Source: Halobaculum saliterrae (GTDB taxonomy: Archaea > Halobacteriota > Halobacteria > Halobacteriales > Haloferacaceae). From it: 64,000 bases of DNA. Every line of letters starts with the position of its first letter. Positions within the stretch are counted from its first letter, which is position 1. Both the position numbers and the translations under genes were made by a program. The stretch covers positions 1 through 64,000 of the forward strand of contig NZ_WUUS01000009.1 in assembly GCF_009831625.1 (NCBI RefSeq), in the 5' to 3' direction. This document shows, piece by piece, positions 630-10,378 of the stretch. The notes below the pieces were generated by a model. That model worked only from the letters and a program-made list of their open reading frames with translations. It was not told the DNA's origin and searched no databases.

Positions 630-1631
630 TCACTCCGCGGTCGGGCCGAGCGGTCCGGCCTCGGCGGCCGCCGCCCGAAGCGTCTCCAGCAGGTCGGCGT
701 CGACCCGCTCGACGTCCTCGACCTCCTTGAGCAGGCAGCCGATCGTCCGCTCGATCTCCTCGCCCGACAGCGGCTTGTCGCCGTCGTCGTGGCGGAGGTG
801 TGCGACCGCGCGGGCCCAGTCGAGCGTCTCGGCGACCCCCGGCCGCTTCAGGAACGCCTCCTCGCGCAGGCGCGCGACGACCGCGCACACCTCCGCGGCG
901 ACCGCGGCGTCCAGCTCGGGCACCTTCCGCCGGACGATCTCGTACTCCGTCTCGAACGACGGCGGCTCGACGTTGAGGTACAGACAGCGACGCTTCAGCG
1001 CGTCGCTCAGCCCTCGCGTCCGGTTCGAGGTGAGGATCACGACCGGCGGCCGCTCGGCCGTGACGGTGCCCAGCTCGGGGATCGACACCTGGAAGTCCGA
1101 CAGCAGCTCCAGCAGGAACGCCTCGAACTCCTCGTCGGCGCGGTCGATCTCGTCGATGAGCAACACCGGCGGCGTCCCGCCCTCCGTGCGCAGCGCCCGC
1201 AGCAGCGGTCGCTCGAGGAGGTACTCCTCGTCGAACACGGAGCCGTGTCGGTCGGCCGCGCCCGGCGGCGACTCGTCGACGGCGGATGCTGCGGCGGAGT
1301 CGGCGGTCCCCCCGGCGACGCTCCCCTCGTCAGCCTGCACGGCGAGCAGCTGCTTCGTGTAGTTCCACTCGTAGAGGGCGTTCTCGGCGGTGAGCCCCTC
1401 GTAACACTGCAGGCGGATGAGCTCGGTGTCGAACGCCTCGGCGAGCACCTTCCCGAGCTCGGTCTTCCCGCTGCCCGGCGGCCCCTCGACGAGGAGCGGC
1501 CGCTCCAGCCGCAGCGCGAGGTCGACCGTCGTCACCGTGCGGTCGTCGGCGACGTAGTCCGCCGCCTCGAACCGCTCGGCGAGGTCGGCCTCCGACACCC
1601 GGCCGAACGGGTCGTCGTCTCCCCGCGTCAT
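630..1631 (-). CDS. coxD: MoxR-family AAA+ ATPase (CoxD-like)
   Basis: A 333-residue MoxR/CoxD-type ATPase. Walker A is EGPPGSGKT (about residues 49-57), Walker B is LLIDEIDRADEEFE, and sensor 1 is VVILTSNRTR, in the usual MoxR order; the C-terminal lid domain is complete. An insert rich in Ala, Ser and Asp (about residues 105-130) separates Walker A from Walker B. The ATG at 1631 was chosen because it overlaps the upstream xdhC stop by four bases (ATGA) and gives the family N-terminus; longer in-frame extensions are read-through of xdhC. In bacterial cox clusters CoxD is a membrane-associated chaperone for sulfuration of the CODH centre. That role here is inferred from position between coxF and coxE. 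Confidence 0.88.
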   Translation of the reverse strand: MTRGDDDPFGRVSEADLAERFEAADYVADDRTVTTVDLALRLERPLLVEGPPGSGKTELGKVLAEAFDTELIRLQCYEGLTAENALYEWNYTKQLLAVQADEGSVAGGTADSAAASAVDESPPGAADRHGSVFDEEYLLERPLLRALRTEGGTPPVLLIDEIDRADEEFEAFLLELLSDFQVSIPELGTVTAERPPVVILTSNRTRGLSDALKRRCLYLNVEPPSFETEYEIVRRKVPELDAAVAAEVCAVVARLREEAFLKRPGVAETLDWARAVAHLRHDDGDKPLSGEEIERTIGCLLKEVEDVERVDADLLETLRAAAAEAGPLGPTAE

Positions 1632-2797
1632 GAGGTGGCGGCGCCCTCCGTGTCGGCGTCGAGGTACTCGTCGGGGTCGGCCGCGAAGGAGTCGGCACAG
1701 CCGCGGCAACAGAAGTGGTACGTCTCGCCGTCGTACTCGACCGTGTCGGCCGCCGACGCCGGGTCGACGGTCATCCCGCAGACTGGGTCGACGGCCTCCT
1801 CGGCCTCGCCCGAGGTGTCGGTATCGGCGTCCGTGTCGGCCTCGTCATCGGTGTCCGTATCGGCCCCGTCGTCGGCGTCCGTGTCGGCGTCGGACTCCAC
1901 GGACCCCGAGTCGTCGCCCGCGGCCGCGCCGGCGACCGGCTGGCCGCCGCCCCCGCGGCCCGGCCGCTCGTCGACGACCTCCGCGAGCAGGCTGGCGGCG
2001 ATCTCGGCGGGTGTGTACGCCGCGACGTCGACCCCGGCGGGGTTCGTCACTCGATCCGCGACCGCCTCGGGATCGGCGTCGACCAGCCCCGCGGCGGTCT
2101 CGACGACCTCTCCCGCGCGGGTGTCGCTTGCAACCAAGCCGACGTAGGGGGCGTCCGCGAGCACGCCGGCGGCGACGCCGCGGGCGTCGAACGATCCCAT
2201 CGTCGCGACGACCACCAGCGGCTCGGGACCGACCGCGTCGGCGACAGCCGACGGCTCGGTGTCGGTCAGTACGCGCGTCCCGTCGGGCAGGCCCGACTCG
2301 TCGCCGTCGGGGTCCACCAGGACCACGTCGACGGCGAGCTCCGCGGCCAGCCGGGCGAGCGACCGCGCCGCCGGCGAGCCGCCGACGATCACCAGCTCCT
2401 GCCGGGGGCGCACCGGCTCGACGAACAGCTCCAGGACGCCCTCGCTGTGGCACGTCATCGGGAACGCCTCCAGTCCCGGGCGGTCCACGTCGTCGGGGTC
2501 TGGCGCGATCCCGATCAGCCGGGGCTCGCCCGCCTCGATGACCTCGGCGGCCTGCGTCGCGGCGATCGTCTGCGCGCAGGCGGCGCCGCCGATCCAGCCG
2601 CGGAGCTCGCCGTCGCGGGTGACGACCGCGCGGTCGCCGACGTTCGCGGACACCGGCGGCTCCCGGCGGACGACCGTCACCCGGGCGTACGGTTCCCCGG
2701 CGGCGGCGAGGTCGCGCTCGAGGGCGGCGACGTCGCCGTCGGCGTCGCCGGGGCTGTGCTGGGTCGCGGTCGGTTCCTCGTCGGTGTCGTGTGTCAT
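1628..2797 (-). CDS. coxF: XdhC/CoxF-family maturation protein fused to a YHS domain
   Basis: A 389-residue protein of three parts. Residues 30-100 form the XdhC/CoxI N-terminal domain (RDGELRGWIGGAACAQTI). Residues 130-265 form the XdhC Rossmann domain (LVIVGGSPAARSLARLAAEL). A long Asp/Thr/Ala-rich linker then leads to a YHS (TRASH-like) domain from residue 336, beginning VDPVCGM and containing YHFCCRGC, with Cys340, 363, 364 and 367. XdhC proteins handle the molybdenum cofactor before insertion into hydroxylases, and CoxF has been linked to Cu-Mo centre assembly. YHS/TRASH domains bind soft metals, so the fusion hints at metal delivery; that is inference. It follows coxL after 69 bases that contain a hairpin, and overlaps coxD by ATGA. 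Confidence 0.85.
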   Translation of the reverse strand: MTHDTDEEPTATQHSPGDADGDVAALERDLAAAGEPYARVTVVRREPPVSANVGDRAVVTRDGELRGWIGGAACAQTIAATQAAEVIEAGEPRLIGIAPDPDDVDRPGLEAFPMTCHSEGVLELFVEPVRPRQELVIVGGSPAARSLARLAAELAVDVVLVDPDGDESGLPDGTRVLTDTEPSAVADAVGPEPLVVVATMGSFDARGVAAGVLADAPYVGLVASDTRAGEVVETAAGLVDADPEAVADRVTNPAGVDVAAYTPAEIAASLLAEVVDERPGRGGGGQPVAGAAAGDDSGSVESDADTDADDGADTDTDDEADTDADTDTSGEAEEAVDPVCGMTVDPASAADTVEYDGETYHFCCRGCADSFAADPDEYLDADTEGAATS

Positions 2798-2866: not shown

Positions 2867-5373
<2,507 letters not shown>

Positions 5374-5377
<4 letters not shown>

Positions 5378-6084
5378 TCGTCGTCACCTCCCATGTGCTC
5401 GGTGTCGAACTGTGCGGGCGGGTCCTCGCCGGGATGGGTCTCGTCCGTCGACGGACCGCCACAGCAGTCCTCGCGGCCGCAGAAGGTGTCCGCGTCGCCG
5501 GCGTCGGCCTCGTACAGCGGGCCGTCCGCCGGGTCCGGGCCGCCGTCACCGGCTGTGTCGGCCGCGAGCGCCCCGCCGTCGGCGGCGACGCGCTCGGCGT
5601 CGTCGAGCTCGTCGGCGGCGTACTCGATCGCCTTCACGATGTTCTGGTAGCCGGTACACCGACAGAGGTTCCCGCTGATCGCCTCGCGGATCTCCTCCTC
5701 GTCGGGGTCGGGGTTCTCCTCGAGCAGGGCCTTCCCGGCCATCAGCATGCCCGGCGTGCAGTAGCCGCACTGGAGGCCGTGCTCCTCCTTGAACCCCTCC
5801 TGCAGGGGGTGCAGCTCCGGCCCAGCGTCCGGGAGGTCCTCCATCCCCTCGACGGTGAGGATCTCGCTGCCGTCGGCCTGCGCCGCGAACATCAGGCAGG
5901 ACTTGATCGGCTCGCCGTCCACGAGGACGGTGCAGGCGCCGCAGTTGCCCGTGTCACAGCCGATGTGGGTGCCCGTCATGCCCAGGTCCTCCCGGATCGC
6001 GTGGACGAGCAGGCGCCGCGGCTCGACCTCGATCGTGTGCTCGGTACCGTTGACCGTCAGCGTGATCTCGCGTTCGTCGCTCAC
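5374..6084 (-). CDS. coxS: CO dehydrogenase small subunit, 2x[2Fe-2S]
   Basis: A 236-residue iron-sulfur subunit. The plant-type cluster is bound by Cys43, 48, 51 and 63 ([16 protein letters not shown]), the second cluster by Cys106, 109, 141 and 143 (QCGYCTPGM and [12 protein letters not shown]). The core ends near residue 160, the normal length of CoxS. A further ~75 residues form an acidic tail with an unusual CGREDCC motif (Cys202, 207, 208) that is not part of the standard fold. The gene overlaps coxM and coxL by ATGA on each side, as expected for subunits made in fixed ratio. It relays electrons from the Mo-Cu site to FAD in CoxM. Confidence 0.95.
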
Positions 6085-6968
6085 TGTGTAACCCTCCGTT
6101 TGACCGCGCCGGCCCGCTCGGCGGCGTCGCCGAGCGCCCGCTGTGCCAGCACGTCGACCATGCGCTCCTTGTAGGAGGCGTCGCCGTGTTCGTCGGACTC
6201 GGGGTTCGACGCCTCGGCCGCCAGCTCGCCCGCCTCCTCGAACAGCTCCGGGCTCGGGCGCTCGCCCTCGAGCGCCTCCTCGGCCTCGCTCGCGCGGGCG
6301 TTCGTGATGTCGACGGCGGTCATGCCGATGCCGGCCGACTCGATCCGCCCGTCGTCGTCGAACCGCAGCCGCGCCGCGACGCCGGCCATCGCGTAGTCGC
6401 CGGTCTTGCGCTTCAGCTTGTGGTAGGCGCTTCCCTCCCGGTCGGCCGGGGTGGGGACGCGCGCCTCCGTGATGAGCTCCTCCTCGCCCAGCGTCGTGTC
6501 GTACGGGAGCAGGAAGAACTCGTCCGCGGGGATCGCCCGCTCGCCGTCGGGGCCCTCCACGACGACCTCGCCGTCGTGGGCGATGAGGACGCTCCCCCAG
6601 TCGCCCTTGGGGTCCGCCTGCGCGACGGAGCCGACGACGGTGCCGCGATTTCGGATCTGGGGGTCCGCCACGAGCGGCGCCGTGTCGGCGAAGCTACCGT
6701 AGCGCTCGTCGATCAGGTCGGAGTCCTCCACGTCGGCGTGGCGCGCGAGCGCCCCGAGCTTCAGGTAGCCGTCCTCCTCGCGGAGGTACTCCAGCGAGTC
6801 GATGCCGTTGATGTCGACGACCACGTCGGGGTTCGCCAGGCGGAACCGCAGCATCGGCACGAGGCTCTGCCCGCCCGCGAGGATCGTCGGGTCGTCGAGG
6901 CTCTCCAGCAGGCTGACGGCCTCGGAGACGCTCTCGGGCTCGTGGTGTTCGAACGGTGCGGACTTCAT
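6081..6968 (-). CDS. coxM: CO dehydrogenase medium (FAD) subunit
   Basis: A 295-residue FAD-binding subunit of the CoxM/xanthine-dehydrogenase FAD family. Both flavin-binding motifs are present: [13 protein letters not shown] near residue 36 and [14 protein letters not shown] near residue 108. The C-terminal CO_deh_flav_C domain contains [18 protein letters not shown] at 6968 is the only start that gives the family N-terminus ([11 protein letters not shown]); it overlaps the coxG stop by one base (TGATG), and its own end overlaps coxS by ATGA. It accepts electrons from CoxS and hands them to the respiratory chain. The gene order M-S-L is that of canonical form I cox operons. Confidence 0.94.
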
Positions 6969-7561
6969 CAGAACATCCCCCGGATCTTGTCGGTGACGCC
7001 GGAGTCGGTCTCCTCCACGTCGGTCATCTGCGCCTCGATGTCGCTGAAGAAGTTGTTCACGATCTTGTTGGCGACCGGGTTGATCACCCGACCGCCGAGC
7101 TGTGCGATCCGCCCGGAGATGTCGGCCTCGGTCCACCACTCGATGCGGGAGCCGTCGCCCTCCTCCTGCGGGTGGATGTGCATCCCCGACTCCATGCTGA
7201 AGCTGCTGCCGCTCGCGGAGCCGGAACCGGTCGCGGTCATGACGAACTCCTCCTCGTCGCGGTCCTCGATGGTGACCGTCGTCTCGAACTTCGGCTTCAC
7301 GCTGCCGACGCCCACCTGCATCAGCGCGGCGTACTTCTGTCCCCCCCGGAACGCCCGGGCGGCGACCTCGTCGGGGTCCGCCTCCGGCAGCGTCTCGATG
7401 TCCTCCTCGGGCTCGTAGGAGTCCCACTCGAAGGAGTCGTCCATCGGGGTGATGTACGCGCACCCCTTCAGCGAGTCCCGGACCGCGATCGGGTCCGAGA
7501 GGACGACCCACGCCTTCTCCGGCGGGACGCCGTCGAGCTCGAACTCGCCGTCGAACTCCAT
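6968..7561 (-). CDS. coxG: CoxG-like SRPBCC protein (CODH subunit G)
   Basis: A 197-residue protein of the CoxG/SRPBCC (START-like) family: MEFDGEFELDGVPPEKAWVV is the standard N-terminus, followed by ALMQVGVGSVKPKFETTVTI and a second half ending INPVANKIVNNFFSDIEAQM. CoxG is needed to tether CO dehydrogenase to the inner face of the membrane in bacteria. Here it is the first gene of the operon, which is not its place in the classical bacterial cluster. A ribosome binding site GGAGGTG (7570-7576) lies 8 bases before ATG, and a TATA box sits at 7611-7620, giving a predicted leader of about 28 bases. Confidence 0.9.
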   Translation of the reverse strand: MEFDGEFELDGVPPEKAWVVLSDPIAVRDSLKGCAYITPMDDSFEWDSYEPEEDIETLPEADPDEVAARAFRGGQKYAALMQVGVGSVKPKFETTVTIEDRDEEEFVMTATGSGSASGSSFSMESGMHIHPQEEGDGSRIEWWTEADISGRIAQLGGRVINPVANKIVNNFFSDIEAQMTDVEETDSGVTDKIRGMF

Positions 7562-7610
7562 CAGCCGTCCACCTCCGCCGTCGGTGTCGTTCGCTGTCCC
7601 GTGCCCGTCA

Positions 7611-7620
7611 TCTTTTATAG
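7611..7620 (-). promoter_or_regulatory. TATA box of the cox operon
   Basis: On the minus strand the sequence reads GCTATAAAAGA, a strong archaeal TATA element 50 bases before the coxG start. Transcription should begin near 7589 and include the GGAGGTG ribosome binding site. A TAGCACCC direct repeat (7618-7625) overlaps the box. Confidence 0.7.
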
Positions 7621-7633
7621 CACCCCACTATGT

Positions 7634-7662
7634 GCATACTATTACCTCGGCCTATGGTATGC
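7634..7662. promoter_or_regulatory. Inverted repeat between divergent cox and moeA promoters (candidate operator)
   Basis: GCATACTAT (7634-7642) faces ATGGTATGC (7654-7662): 8 of 9 positions are symmetric, the inner spacer is 11 bases and the half-site centres are 20 bases apart, about two helical turns. The repeat is 13 bases from the cox TATA box and 10 bases from the likely moeA TATA box. A direct repeat TAGCACCC occurs once beside each TATA box (7618-7625 and 7665-7672). The layout suits one regulator acting on both operons. Confidence 0.55.
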
Positions 7663-7672
7663 GGTAGCACCC

Positions 7673-7681
7673 AAATAAAAG
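7673..7681 (+). promoter_or_regulatory. Likely TATA box of moeA-mocA
   Basis: AAATAAAAG lies 89-97 bases before the moeA ATG, predicting a start near 7704 and a leader of about 65 bases. That leader ends with GGAGG (7761-7765), a good ribosome binding site for the ATG at 7770. The box is AT-rich in an otherwise GC-rich region but less canonical than the cox TATA box on the other strand. Confidence 0.45.
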
Positions 7682-7769
7682 TTCATGACCTCGGAACCGT
7701 CGCCGGACGTTTACCCGCGAGCGCGCCAGAGGCGTTCGGGAACGATGACGCAGGACACCCGGAGGAACG

Positions 7770-9131
7770 ATGACGAACGATGACCGCGCGACCGGGGGAA
7801 CCGACGGCGACCGAGACGGCGAGCCCGGCCGCGACCACGGACCCGGCCGTGACGACACGTCCGACAGCGACGACGGGTCGGACCAGAACCACGAACCCGA
7901 CCACGACCACGGGTCAGACCACGATCACGACGGGCTGATCGGGTGGCGGGAGGGCGCCGACCGCGTCGGCGACCTCCGCGGTCGCCTGCTCGATCGGGTC
8001 GGGACCGGGACCGTCGACATCGACCGCATCGCGGGCCGGACGCTCGCGGAGGGGCTGGACGCGCCCCGGGCGGTGCCGGACCGGAGCCACTCGACGATGG
8101 ACGGCTACGCGTTCGCCGCCGGCGACGACTACCCGTTGGCGGTGATCGAGGCCGACGTGTTCCCGGAGGACGACCCGCCCGAACTCGCCGCCGGCGAGGC
8201 GGTGCGGATCGCCACCGGGGCGCCGGTGCCCGACTCCGCGGACGCGGTGCTCAAGCGGGAGGAGGCGGCCGTCGAGGACGGACGGCTCACCGGGCCCGAA
8301 CTCGACCCCGGTACCTACGTCTACGAGCGCGGGAGCAACGTCGCCGAGGGCGAGCGGCTGTTCGAGGCCGGCGAGCGACTCGCGCCCCGGGACGCCCTCC
8401 TGCTCGGCGACCTGGGCGTCGACGAGGTGACCGTCCGCGAGCGGCTCTCGGTCGGACTGCTCGCCACGGGAACGGAGATCCACGAGGGCCGCAGCCGCGA
8501 CCTCGACTCGCCCATGCTCGCGAACCTCGTCTCGGCGTGGGGCCACGAGCCGACCCACGAGGGCTCCGTCCCCGACGACTACGAGCGCGTCGAGTCGCGG
8601 ATCGCCGCGCTCGCGGCCGAGCACGACGTGGTCGTCACCACGGGCGGAACGAGCGTCGGCGACAAGGACTACGTCGTCCGCGCGCTCGACGCGCTCGGCG
8701 AGGTGCTGTTCCACCGCGTCGCCCTCCGGCCGGGCAAGCCCATCGCGGTCGCGGACCTCCCGGAGCACGACGCGGTCGCCGTCGCCGTCCCCGGCAAGCC
8801 GGTCGGCGCCCACGCGGTGACGACGCTCGTGGCCCGACCGCTGTTCACCGGCGAGTCCGAGCTCTCGACCGTCGAGGCGACCCTCTCGACCGACGTGGGG
8901 ATCGGTCCGGCCGGGTTCACCTACGCCGTGCCGGTCGTCCTCGAGGACGAGACCGCGACGCCGCTTGGACACGCCGACTCCGCCCTGCAGGTGTACGAGG
9001 AGACGTTCGACCCCAGCGTGCTCTCATCGTCCACGCGGGCGACACGCGCGGACGGGTTCGTCCTCACGGAGTCGGGACTCGCCGCTGGCGACGCCGTCGA
9101 CGTCGTCCCGTACCCGGCGGTCGAACGATGA
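7770..9131 (+). CDS. moeA: Molybdopterin molybdenumtransferase MoeA
   Basis: A 453-residue MoeA family protein that inserts molybdate into adenylated molybdopterin. Recognisable segments are PDRSHSTMDGYAF, GEAVRIATGAPVP, LGVDEVTVRERLSVGLLATG, and the MoCF-binding motif VVTTGGTSVGDKDYV; the MoeA domain IV is at the C-terminus. The first ~50 residues are an added Asp/Gly/His-rich stretch (for example DHDHGSDHDHDG) that looks disordered and could bind metal. GGAGG at 7761-7765 supports this ATG. It is divergent from the cox operon and overlaps mocA by ATGA. Placement beside CODH genes suggests it serves CoxL, though it may also be the general MoeA of the cell. Confidence 0.92.
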   Translation: MTNDDRATGGTDGDRDGEPGRDHGPGRDDTSDSDDGSDQNHEPDHDHGSDHDHDGLIGWREGADRVGDLRGRLLDRVGTGTVDIDRIAGRTLAEGLDAPRAVPDRSHSTMDGYAFAAGDDYPLAVIEADVFPEDDPPELAAGEAVRIATGAPVPDSADAVLKREEAAVEDGRLTGPELDPGTYVYERGSNVAEGERLFEAGERLAPRDALLLGDLGVDEVTVRERLSVGLLATGTEIHEGRSRDLDSPMLANLVSAWGHEPTHEGSVPDDYERVESRIAALAAEHDVVVTTGGTSVGDKDYVVRALDALGEVLFHRVALRPGKPIAVADLPEHDAVAVAVPGKPVGAHAVTTLVARPLFTGESELSTVEATLSTDVGIGPAGFTYAVPVVLEDETATPLGHADSALQVYEETFDPSVLSSSTRATRADGFVLTESGLAAGDAVDVVPYPAVER

Positions 9132-9805
9132 GCGGCGGTGACCTCCCGGTCGTGTCGCCCCCGTTCGACGCCGAGGACGGGGACGGGGACGGGGACGGGG
9201 ACGGGGACGGGGACGACGCCCCGCGCGTCGCCGGCGTCGTCCTCGCCGCCGGAACGAGCTCGCGTTTCGGCGAGCGGAACAAGCTCGTGGCGCCGGCGGG
9301 GGGCGACGGCGGCGAGCCGCTGGTCCGGGCGGCCGCCCGCACGCTGCTGGAGGCGGGCCTCGCGCCGGTCGTGGCGGTCGTCGGTCACGAGGCCGACCGC
9401 GTCGTCGACGCCCTCGACGGGCTCGACGTGCGGACGGTCCGCAACGACGAGTTCGAGAGCGGACAGGCGTCGTCAGTCCGGACCGGGATCGACGCCGTCG
9501 CGGCGGCGGAGCCGCCGGTCGACGCCGCGGTCGTCGCGCTCGGCGACATGCCGTTCGTCGACCCCGCGACGGTGCGGACGCTGGTCGACGCCTACGCCGC
9601 CGGCGTCGGCGGCGCGCTGGCGCCCGCCCACGAGGGTCGGCGGGGGAACCCGGTGCTGTTCGACCGACGGTTCTTCGATCCCCTGACCGACGTTGACGGC
9701 GACGTCGGCGGCCGGGCGGTCCTCCTCGGGAGCGACGACTCGGCGCTCGTCGCCGTCGACGACCCCGGGGTCCGCCGGGACGTCGACGAGCCGACCGACC
9801 TGTGA
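9128..9805 (+). CDS. mocA: MocA-like molybdenum cofactor cytidylyltransferase
   Basis: A 225-residue MobA/MocA-type nucleotidyltransferase. The nucleotide-binding loop is VVLAAGTSSRFGERNKL, followed by the conserved VVALGDMPFVDPATV and GNPVLFDRRFF motifs. CO dehydrogenase uses the cytosine-dinucleotide form of molybdopterin, and MocA attaches CMP, so the pairing with moeA and divergence from coxGMSL fit an MCD-making role; CTP rather than GTP specificity is inferred from family resemblance and context. The ATG overlaps the moeA stop by ATGA. Residues 17-29 are an Asp-Gly run encoded by a tandem hexanucleotide repeat. The CoxI/YgfJ group of the same fold is the main alternative name. Confidence 0.86.
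   Translation: MSGGDLPVVSPPFDAEDGDGDGDGDGDGDDAPRVAGVVLAAGTSSRFGERNKLVAPAGGDGGEPLVRAAARTLLEAGLAPVVAVVGHEADRVVDALDGLDVRTVRNDEFESGQASSVRTGIDAVAAAEPPVDAAVVALGDMPFVDPATVRTLVDAYAAGVGGALAPAHEGRRGNPVLFDRRFFDPLTDVDGDVGGRAVLLGSDDSALVAVDDPGVRRDVDEPTDL
9176..9214 (+). repeat. GACGGG hexanucleotide repeat inside mocA
   Basis: Six exact copies of GACGGG plus a final GAC encode an Asp-Gly run between the start codon and the nucleotide-binding loop. Because the unit is a multiple of three, slippage would change linker length without breaking the frame. Confidence 0.9.
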
Positions 9806-9827: not shown

Positions 9828-9995
9828 TCACTCCCCGTCGGATCCGTCGGGGTCGAGCTTCTCGACGACGATCTCGCCGTCACGGACGTGCCACTCGACT
9901 CGGTCGCCCGCGCCGACGTCGAGGAAGTTCCTGACCGACTTCGGGACGGTCGTGAGGTTCTTCTCGGAGACTTTCGTGTCCGTCAGCGTACCCAT
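9828..9995 (-). CDS. AbrB/SpoVT-family DNA-binding protein
   Basis: A 55-residue protein with the swapped-hairpin AbrB fold: TKVSEKNLTTVPKSVRNFLD and GDRVEWHVRDGEIVVEKL match the family core, with the typical VP-x(2)-VR motif. ATG at 9995 is chosen because it begins the AbrB core directly. Such short proteins act either as MazE/VapB-type antitoxins or as regulators. No toxin gene adjoins it; the gene upstream, 38 bases away on the same strand, is a small HTH protein, so a two-gene regulatory operon is more likely than a toxin-antitoxin pair. Confidence 0.8.
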   Translation of the reverse strand: MGTLTDTKVSEKNLTTVPKSVRNFLDVGAGDRVEWHVRDGEIVVEKLDPDGSDGE

Positions 9996-10033
9996 CGGTC
10001 CGGAGTAGACACGTAGCGCATACGTAGCTTTCG

Positions 10034-10345
10034 CTATGAGGGGGAGCCCGAGCGGGCGTCGGACCGGGTCGGCCCGCCCGACTCCCAGCGGTGGGTGCCG
10101 TTGTCGGAGGCCTTGGAGAAGTCGAGGTCGTAGCGGTCGGACTCGATGAGGACGGGCCCGGGGACGTACGCCCCGTCGCCGGCCGCGTCGAGGAGGTCGC
10201 GCTCGGCCATCGTCCCGAGGACGTCGCGGACTGTCCGCTCGCGACCGGCCAGGAGGTTCGCCTCCTCGACGACGGCCTCGACGGTGACCCGTCCCCGGAG
10301 CATCGCCAGCCGGATCGCCGCGACCCACGCCGGCTCGCGTCTCAT
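10034..10345 (-). CDS. Small winged-helix-like protein, haloarchaeal
   Basis: About 103 residues beginning MRREPAWVAAIRLAM, followed by a helical region with VEEANLLAGRERTVRDVL, consistent with a winged-helix DNA-binding domain, then DRYDLDFSKAS. Many haloarchaeal PhiH1-repressor-like proteins begin with MRREP/MRREAxWM, which is why ATG 10345 is preferred to the in-frame GTG at 10366. A TATA element at 10379-10388 would start transcription near 10357, close to both. The AbrB-type gene follows 38 bases downstream and is probably co-transcribed. Target unknown. Confidence 0.6.
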   Translation of the reverse strand: MRREPAWVAAIRLAMLRGRVTVEAVVEEANLLAGRERTVRDVLGTMAERDLLDAAGDGAYVPGPVLIESDRYDLDFSKASDNGTHRWESGGPTRSDARSGSPS

Positions 10346-10378
10346 CTCACGACACACGACCCGCACGATGAACAGGAC

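Follow-up and report, generated by a model that had tools for sequence, protein, structure and literature searches.

In the 64,000-nucleotide stretch of Halobaculum saliterrae DNA analysed here (the window), the intergenic region upstream of the aerobic CO dehydrogenase (CODH) gene coxG carries a genuine, strongly conserved, protein-binding-like element that very probably governs the CODH genes of haloarchaea. From the sequence conservation, locus specificity, motif sharing, and gene co-occurrence that the analysis shows, the best overall explanation, which we regard as fairly probable, is a form I CODH operator with dedicated small regulators.

The region is bounded by the coxG start at 7561 on the minus strand and the moeA start at 7770 on the plus strand. 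The left operon follows the order coxG-coxM-coxS-coxL, continued by a gene for an XdhC-type maturation protein, while the right operon consists of moeA and a mocA-like gene. The product of coxL matches the active-site loop pattern AYxCSFR, with AYRCSFR encoded within 2867-5377, and exceeds the cut-off of the aerobic CODH equivalog TIGR02416 (1200 versus 991 bits), which together define the enzyme as a form I CO dehydrogenase.

Table 1. Genes and sequence features of the CODH locus in the window.
Feature	Position	Strand	Remarks
XdhC/CoxI-type maturation protein, YHS/TRASH-like C-terminus	1628..2797	-	PF13478, PF02625, PF04945
coxL, form I aerobic CO dehydrogenase large subunit	2867..5377	-	AYRCSFR motif; TIGR02416
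coxS (2Fe-2S subunit)	5374..6084	-	PF01799, PF00111
coxM (FAD subunit)	6081..6974	-	PF00941, PF03450
coxG, CODH operon gene 1	6968..7561	-	PF06240, E=1.4e-17
Possible 16-codon upstream ORF	7560..7610	-	TGA overlaps coxG start (TGATG)
Left AT-rich box TTTTATA/TATAAAA	7613..7619	.	near-invariant, 95% identity
Conserved core, putative operator, CTATGTGCATACTATTA	7628..7644	+	CTATG-N6-CTAT, half-sites 11 bp apart; 92% identity
Right arm ATGGTATGC	7654..7662	+	kept only as RTGNTAT; at most auxiliary half-site
Predicted coxG promoter	7675..7687	-	BRE-like CATGAACT (7680-7687), TATA-like TTTAT (7675-7679)
moeA, divergent neighbour	7770..9131	+	PF03453, PF00994
mocA-like nucleotidyltransferase	9128..9805	+	PF12804, E=1.6e-35
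AbrB-type (looped-hinge helix) small protein, candidate CODH regulator	9828..9995	-	TIGR01439 over cut-off
Motif copy 2, CTACGTATGCGCTA, in abrB promoter	10014..10027	-	about -32 from ATG
Small winged-helix protein, candidate CODH regulator	10034..10357	-	GTG start, MCRE...; form I CODH linkage; predicted H-H-H-E-E core

The conserved core at the coxG junction

Relatives of coxG are encoded in 52 of the 171 genomes of the family, and the nearest 22, the window included, were aligned. The core, CTATGNGCAYACTATTA, stands out from diverged flanks in this alignment. A further 20 intact loci from other families were added by means of the linked winged-helix gene. Across 40 loci from several haloarchaeal families, the core shows a mean pairwise identity of 92%, compared to 36-51% in its flanks, and the left AT-rich box is 95% identical pairwise across the same loci. 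The element accompanies coxG in all 46 loci examined, five of which carry a diverged version. These are found in four genomes (G165-G168) and at L166 in the Halovenus carboxidivorans cluster (L166, L197), where the element reads CTATG-N6-CTAAG or CTTAG with unchanged spacing. In the loci of the four genomes (L118-L121), the CTATG-N6-CTAAG unit 5' of coxG is joined by further GAGT/ACTC inverted repeats.

A search of the family genomes for the core, allowing at most one mismatch, returned matches in 27 genomes. Mismatch-free copies occur in 21 of them, each time at the coxG junction only, and another genome (G007) carries the core at this junction with one mismatch. The remaining one-mismatch matches are few, scattered, and at control level. 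Distant coxG paralogues of about 50% identity (L028-L031) do not carry the core. In relatives with the same divergent gene order, where the earlier note had required the repeat to be conserved, the element as a whole is kept.

The earlier note had described the element as a bipartite palindrome, with a 9-base inverted repeat as its functional unit and a direct repeat beside each of two TATA boxes. The inverted repeat is present, with eight of nine positions matching between GCATACTAT (7634-7642) and ATGGTATGC (7654-7662) across an 11-nt gap, as are the AT-rich boxes (7613-7619 and 7675-7680) and two copies of TAGCACCC (7618-7625 and 7665-7672). However, dinucleotide shuffling yields an equally good inverted repeat in 26% of cases for the intergenic region and in 10% for the 71-bp segment, and an 8-mer direct repeat within 60 bp in 13%, so that the repeats by themselves are not significant. 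Nor are the arms and their spacing conserved as a unit. On average, the right arm agrees with the left arm's complement at 5.1 of 9 positions (3.8 +/- 0.15 for shuffled sequence), its best spacing drifts by 1 bp in some lineages, and its outer, terminal GC is not conserved. The left arm falls inside the near-invariant 17-bp core (7628-7644). As for the direct repeat, its left copy is not conserved and its right copy is kept in only part of the lineages. The near-perfect inverted repeat is mostly due to chance.

Promoters, leader and the moeA question

Box orientation was judged from the published haloarchaeal promoter consensus, CGAAA for the BRE and TTWT for the TATA element (PMC4983044), together with column counts. 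Taken on the minus strand, the right box has the sequence nnAACnTTTAT; an A occupies -3 in 46 of 46 loci and -4 in 37 of 46. As the BRE-like AA lies on the outer, minus-strand side, the right box points to coxG and not to moeA; of the two facing TATA boxes proposed earlier, the AT-rich sequences remain, but the right one, its BRE directed outward, is reassigned. It is also kept where no moeA is divergent. From the usual spacing of about 26 nt, transcription of coxG is predicted to start near 7649-7652. With the right box as a leftward coxG promoter, the core would lie at or just after this start (about +5 to +22), a repressor-like geometry.

The left box may be a rightward promoter, a second coxG promoter, or the A-rich context of the following ATG, and no single role assigned to it fits every locus. 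It is kept where moeA is gone, which is unexpected for a rightward moeA promoter, and in two loci (L145, L152) without a following ATG. The box is as conserved as the core; if it were the sole TATA of coxG, the core would become an upstream activator site. We consider it unlikely that coxG is mainly transcribed from a TATA in the left box, TATAAAAG, with the core immediately before it acting as an upstream activating sequence. TATAAAA is an ideal TATA sequence, nearly identical across loci, the box persists even without moeA and the upstream ATG (L152), and such a promoter would give the short leader usual in haloarchaea. On the other hand, the leader sequences hold no A-rich BRE upstream of the box when it is read as a minus-strand TATA, and six loci (L118-L121, L153, L166) have the coxG start codon directly against the box, which therefore cannot serve as the coxG promoter there.

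Of the 40 long-leader loci, 38 have the start codon of the possible upstream ORF, 33 of these 38 with the same frame offset, and the stop of the ORF overlaps or abuts the coxG start in 22 loci, a pattern that suggests translational coupling with coxG. An explanation of the left box by this ORF only was weakened by L145 and L152, which keep the box without the start codon. If coxG starts near 7650, the core would be transcribed and could represent a conserved 5' leader RNA element or a leader-ORF translation signal of the cox mRNA, in keeping with the ORF start that follows the core in 38 of the 40 long-leader loci in a preferred frame. We regard this as very improbable, as the copy of the motif upstream of abrB overlaps the expected TATA and is oriented oppositely with respect to transcription, which suits a DNA site.

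With regard to ARRANGEMENTS, moeA is directly divergent from coxG in 34 of the 46 loci and not directly divergent in 12. Six loci have the winged-helix gene, abrB, and coxG in this order on the same strand and lack moeA in the vicinity; abrB is placed between coxG and moeA in five, and the winged-helix gene in one. The element is kept with coxG in all three of these arrangements, and in six genomes the motif is absent both upstream of the relocated moeA and from the locus fetched around it. Retention at coxG without a divergent moeA, together with a moved moeA that lacks the motif, identifies the element as a probable CODH operator and leaves cofactor co-regulation as lineage-specific at most. 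Sharing between the CODH and Mo-cofactor promoters, which the earlier note had made its defining role, is thus not retained, and shared control of moeA by the element would be an optional, putative feature. The original proposal of a palindromic bipartite operator between outward-facing TATA promoters, co-inducing CODH and Mo-cofactor genes, could draw on the inverted repeat in the window, on the prevalence of the divergent moeA, on the conservation of both boxes, and on moeA and mocA as plausible partners of a molybdenum enzyme. It appears doubtful in view of the weakly conserved right arm with its drifting spacing, the right box reading towards coxG, and the independence of element and moeA described above. 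As a second target of the putative CODH operator, abrB is better supported than moeA.

The abrB motif copy and two candidate regulators

Upstream of abrB, a block of the form C[AG]TAGCG[TA]AA[AG]CTATGTnnnnRCTA[CG]G keeps a constant position relative to the ATG, lying at -31 to -34 in 41 of 43 loci. It has CTATGT-N4-RCTA in common with the cox core. In the source genome, CTAYGTNNNNRCTA occurs four times: at coxG, at abrB, and twice inside predicted ORFs, a position for which the latter two were dismissed as sites. Across the 46 loci (1.8 Mb in all, both strands), the expression CTA[TCA]G-N6-CTA, defined after both promoters had been inspected, yields 89 matches, 82 of which lie in coxG or abrB promoters. 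The copy in the window is a weak variant (CTACGT...CTACG) that scores low with the coxG matrix. Within the abrB match, ACTATGTA falls where the TATA is expected, so some of the similarity could reflect the promoter and not an operator. The motif is absent from the promoter of the winged-helix gene.

The winged-helix and AbrB genes both adjoin mocA in the window. Both are present in all 26 family genomes with form I CODH; among the 145 without it, the winged-helix gene occurs in three and the AbrB gene in two (Fisher p about 1e-27, not phylogeny-corrected, with counts that are not independent). Accordingly, the winged-helix gene is found in 29 of the 171 family genomes (the 26 with CODH plus G130, G012, and G018) and the AbrB orthologue in 28 (the same 26 plus G130 and G006). 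Where a remnant is recognisable, these exceptions are remnants of CODH loss; the remnant loci comprise L115 (G130), L116, L117, and L146. In G130, the cox genes are deleted and an intact winged-helix gene remains next to mocA and abrB, G006 keeps abrB, moeA, and mocA with the cox genes gone, and the winged-helix genes of G012 and G018 are partial or broken. The pair also accompanies CODH in all 20 intact loci outside the family, which were found via the winged-helix gene. In Natronorubrum bangense, a single strain carries two winged-helix copies (L183, L185), one chromosomal and the other in a plasmid record, a hint of plasmid-borne transfer of the CODH cluster.

The winged-helix protein has no match in Pfam or NCBIfam, and sequence searches of the PDB gave no significant relatives. 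Its AlphaFold model consists of helices at residues 10-21, 26-32, and 40-52 and strands at 56-60 and 63-66, with pLDDT above 90 in the core, and the best structural matches (E about 0.01) contain winged-helix domains, IclR and MarR types included. The small protein is thus predicted to adopt a winged-helix fold with three helices and a beta wing. Across 27 sequences, M1-C2-R3-E4, H89, and W91 do not vary. The invariant MCRE N-terminus and the His-x-Trp near the C-terminus are unusual for a plain DNA-binding protein. It is conceivable, though rather unlikely, that a gas-, metal-, or redox-sensing site is built from MCRE, whose Cys is probably exposed once Met has been cleaved off, and the C-terminal His-x-Trp, and that the protein works with AbrB as a new CO- or starvation-responsive regulator of archaeal trace-gas oxidation.

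The AbrB protein exceeds the cut-offs for looped-hinge helix proteins (TIGR01439, 32.7 versus 28.3 bits; PF04014, 33.6 versus 24.7 bits) and reaches 26.8 bits against the PrlF antitoxin model, whose cut-off is 125. The AlphaFold model of its monomer is poor (pLDDT 61). In most loci, its gene neighbours the winged-helix gene. Judged by their co-occurrence with CODH, the two proteins are likely candidates for regulators of the CODH element. A global or molybdenum-responsive (ModE-like) regulator could bind the element instead, with the small proteins serving another CODH-linked function: CODH is a molybdoenzyme, and a ModE-like protein, scoring below cut-off, is encoded on another contig of the source genome. 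We give this little credence, as the core occurs at a single locus, unlike what would be expected for a global regulator, and the small genes and the element are inherited together. The sites also seem unlike the ModE box.

Proposed mechanism and relation to known regulators

We propose that the unit CTATG-N6-CTAT at 7628-7644 serves as the operator of the haloarchaeal form I aerobic CO dehydrogenase operon, with CTAnG half-sites about one helical turn apart and weaker conserved bases to the right of the core. A protein seated on the core, over the start region of coxG, would stop transcription at initiation or early in elongation. Most likely, the winged-helix protein, the AbrB protein, or both would bind the motif and repress cox transcription, abrB would be autoregulated via the motif copy overlapping its promoter, and repression could be released by a cue such as CO or carbon limitation. 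The best reading is a dedicated, autoregulated CODH regulatory pair. Haloarchaeal CO uptake is reported to be typically induced when substrate becomes limiting in stationary phase (PMC5743682), in keeping with a dedicated repressor that would not need to sense CO.

The open-access literature, to which our search was confined, yielded no described archaeal regulator of aerobic CODH, and as far as we found within it the pair is undescribed. The aerobic CODH regulators known so far come from bacteria and are LytTR proteins whose sensor domains are of the heme or MHYT type. By pointing to an exact predicted operator, a second putative target, and two candidate regulators, all conserved across haloarchaeal families, the analysis opens the regulation of CO oxidation in brines to direct tests.

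Among known families, the AbrB protein resembles AbrB/SpoVT members (Bacillus AbrB, SpoVT, and archaeal AbrB-like proteins) in its small size and in a looped-hinge helix domain that scores above the TIGR01439 cut-off. In contrast to these, it is short, has a single domain, and is usually encoded as the partner of a winged-helix gene in company with CODH, and no toxin gene was noticed among the neighbours inspected. The winged-helix protein shares its predicted fold with small IclR/MarR-type regulators, but differs in the lack of a Pfam or NCBIfam match and in its invariant N-terminal MCRE and C-terminal H-x-W. RcoM, a LytTR activator (PMC11347149) with a heme CO sensor and a LytTR DNA-binding domain, and CooA likewise regulate CO oxidation genes, yet are heme-domain activators of bacteria. 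The LytTR domain PF04397 is absent from the source genome and present in 5 of 14 controls. CoxC of Afipia carboxidovorans, a LytTR-MHYT repressor of cox genes (PMC11347149), is comparable as a locus-encoded form I CODH regulator with a direct-repeat operator overlapping the promoter and with repression, as proposed here. CoxC, however, is a membrane protein of the LytTR type, and its three TTNNNGCN repeats have a spacing of 18-21 bp, whereas the haloarchaeal locus presents winged-helix and AbrB candidates and half-sites 11 bp apart.
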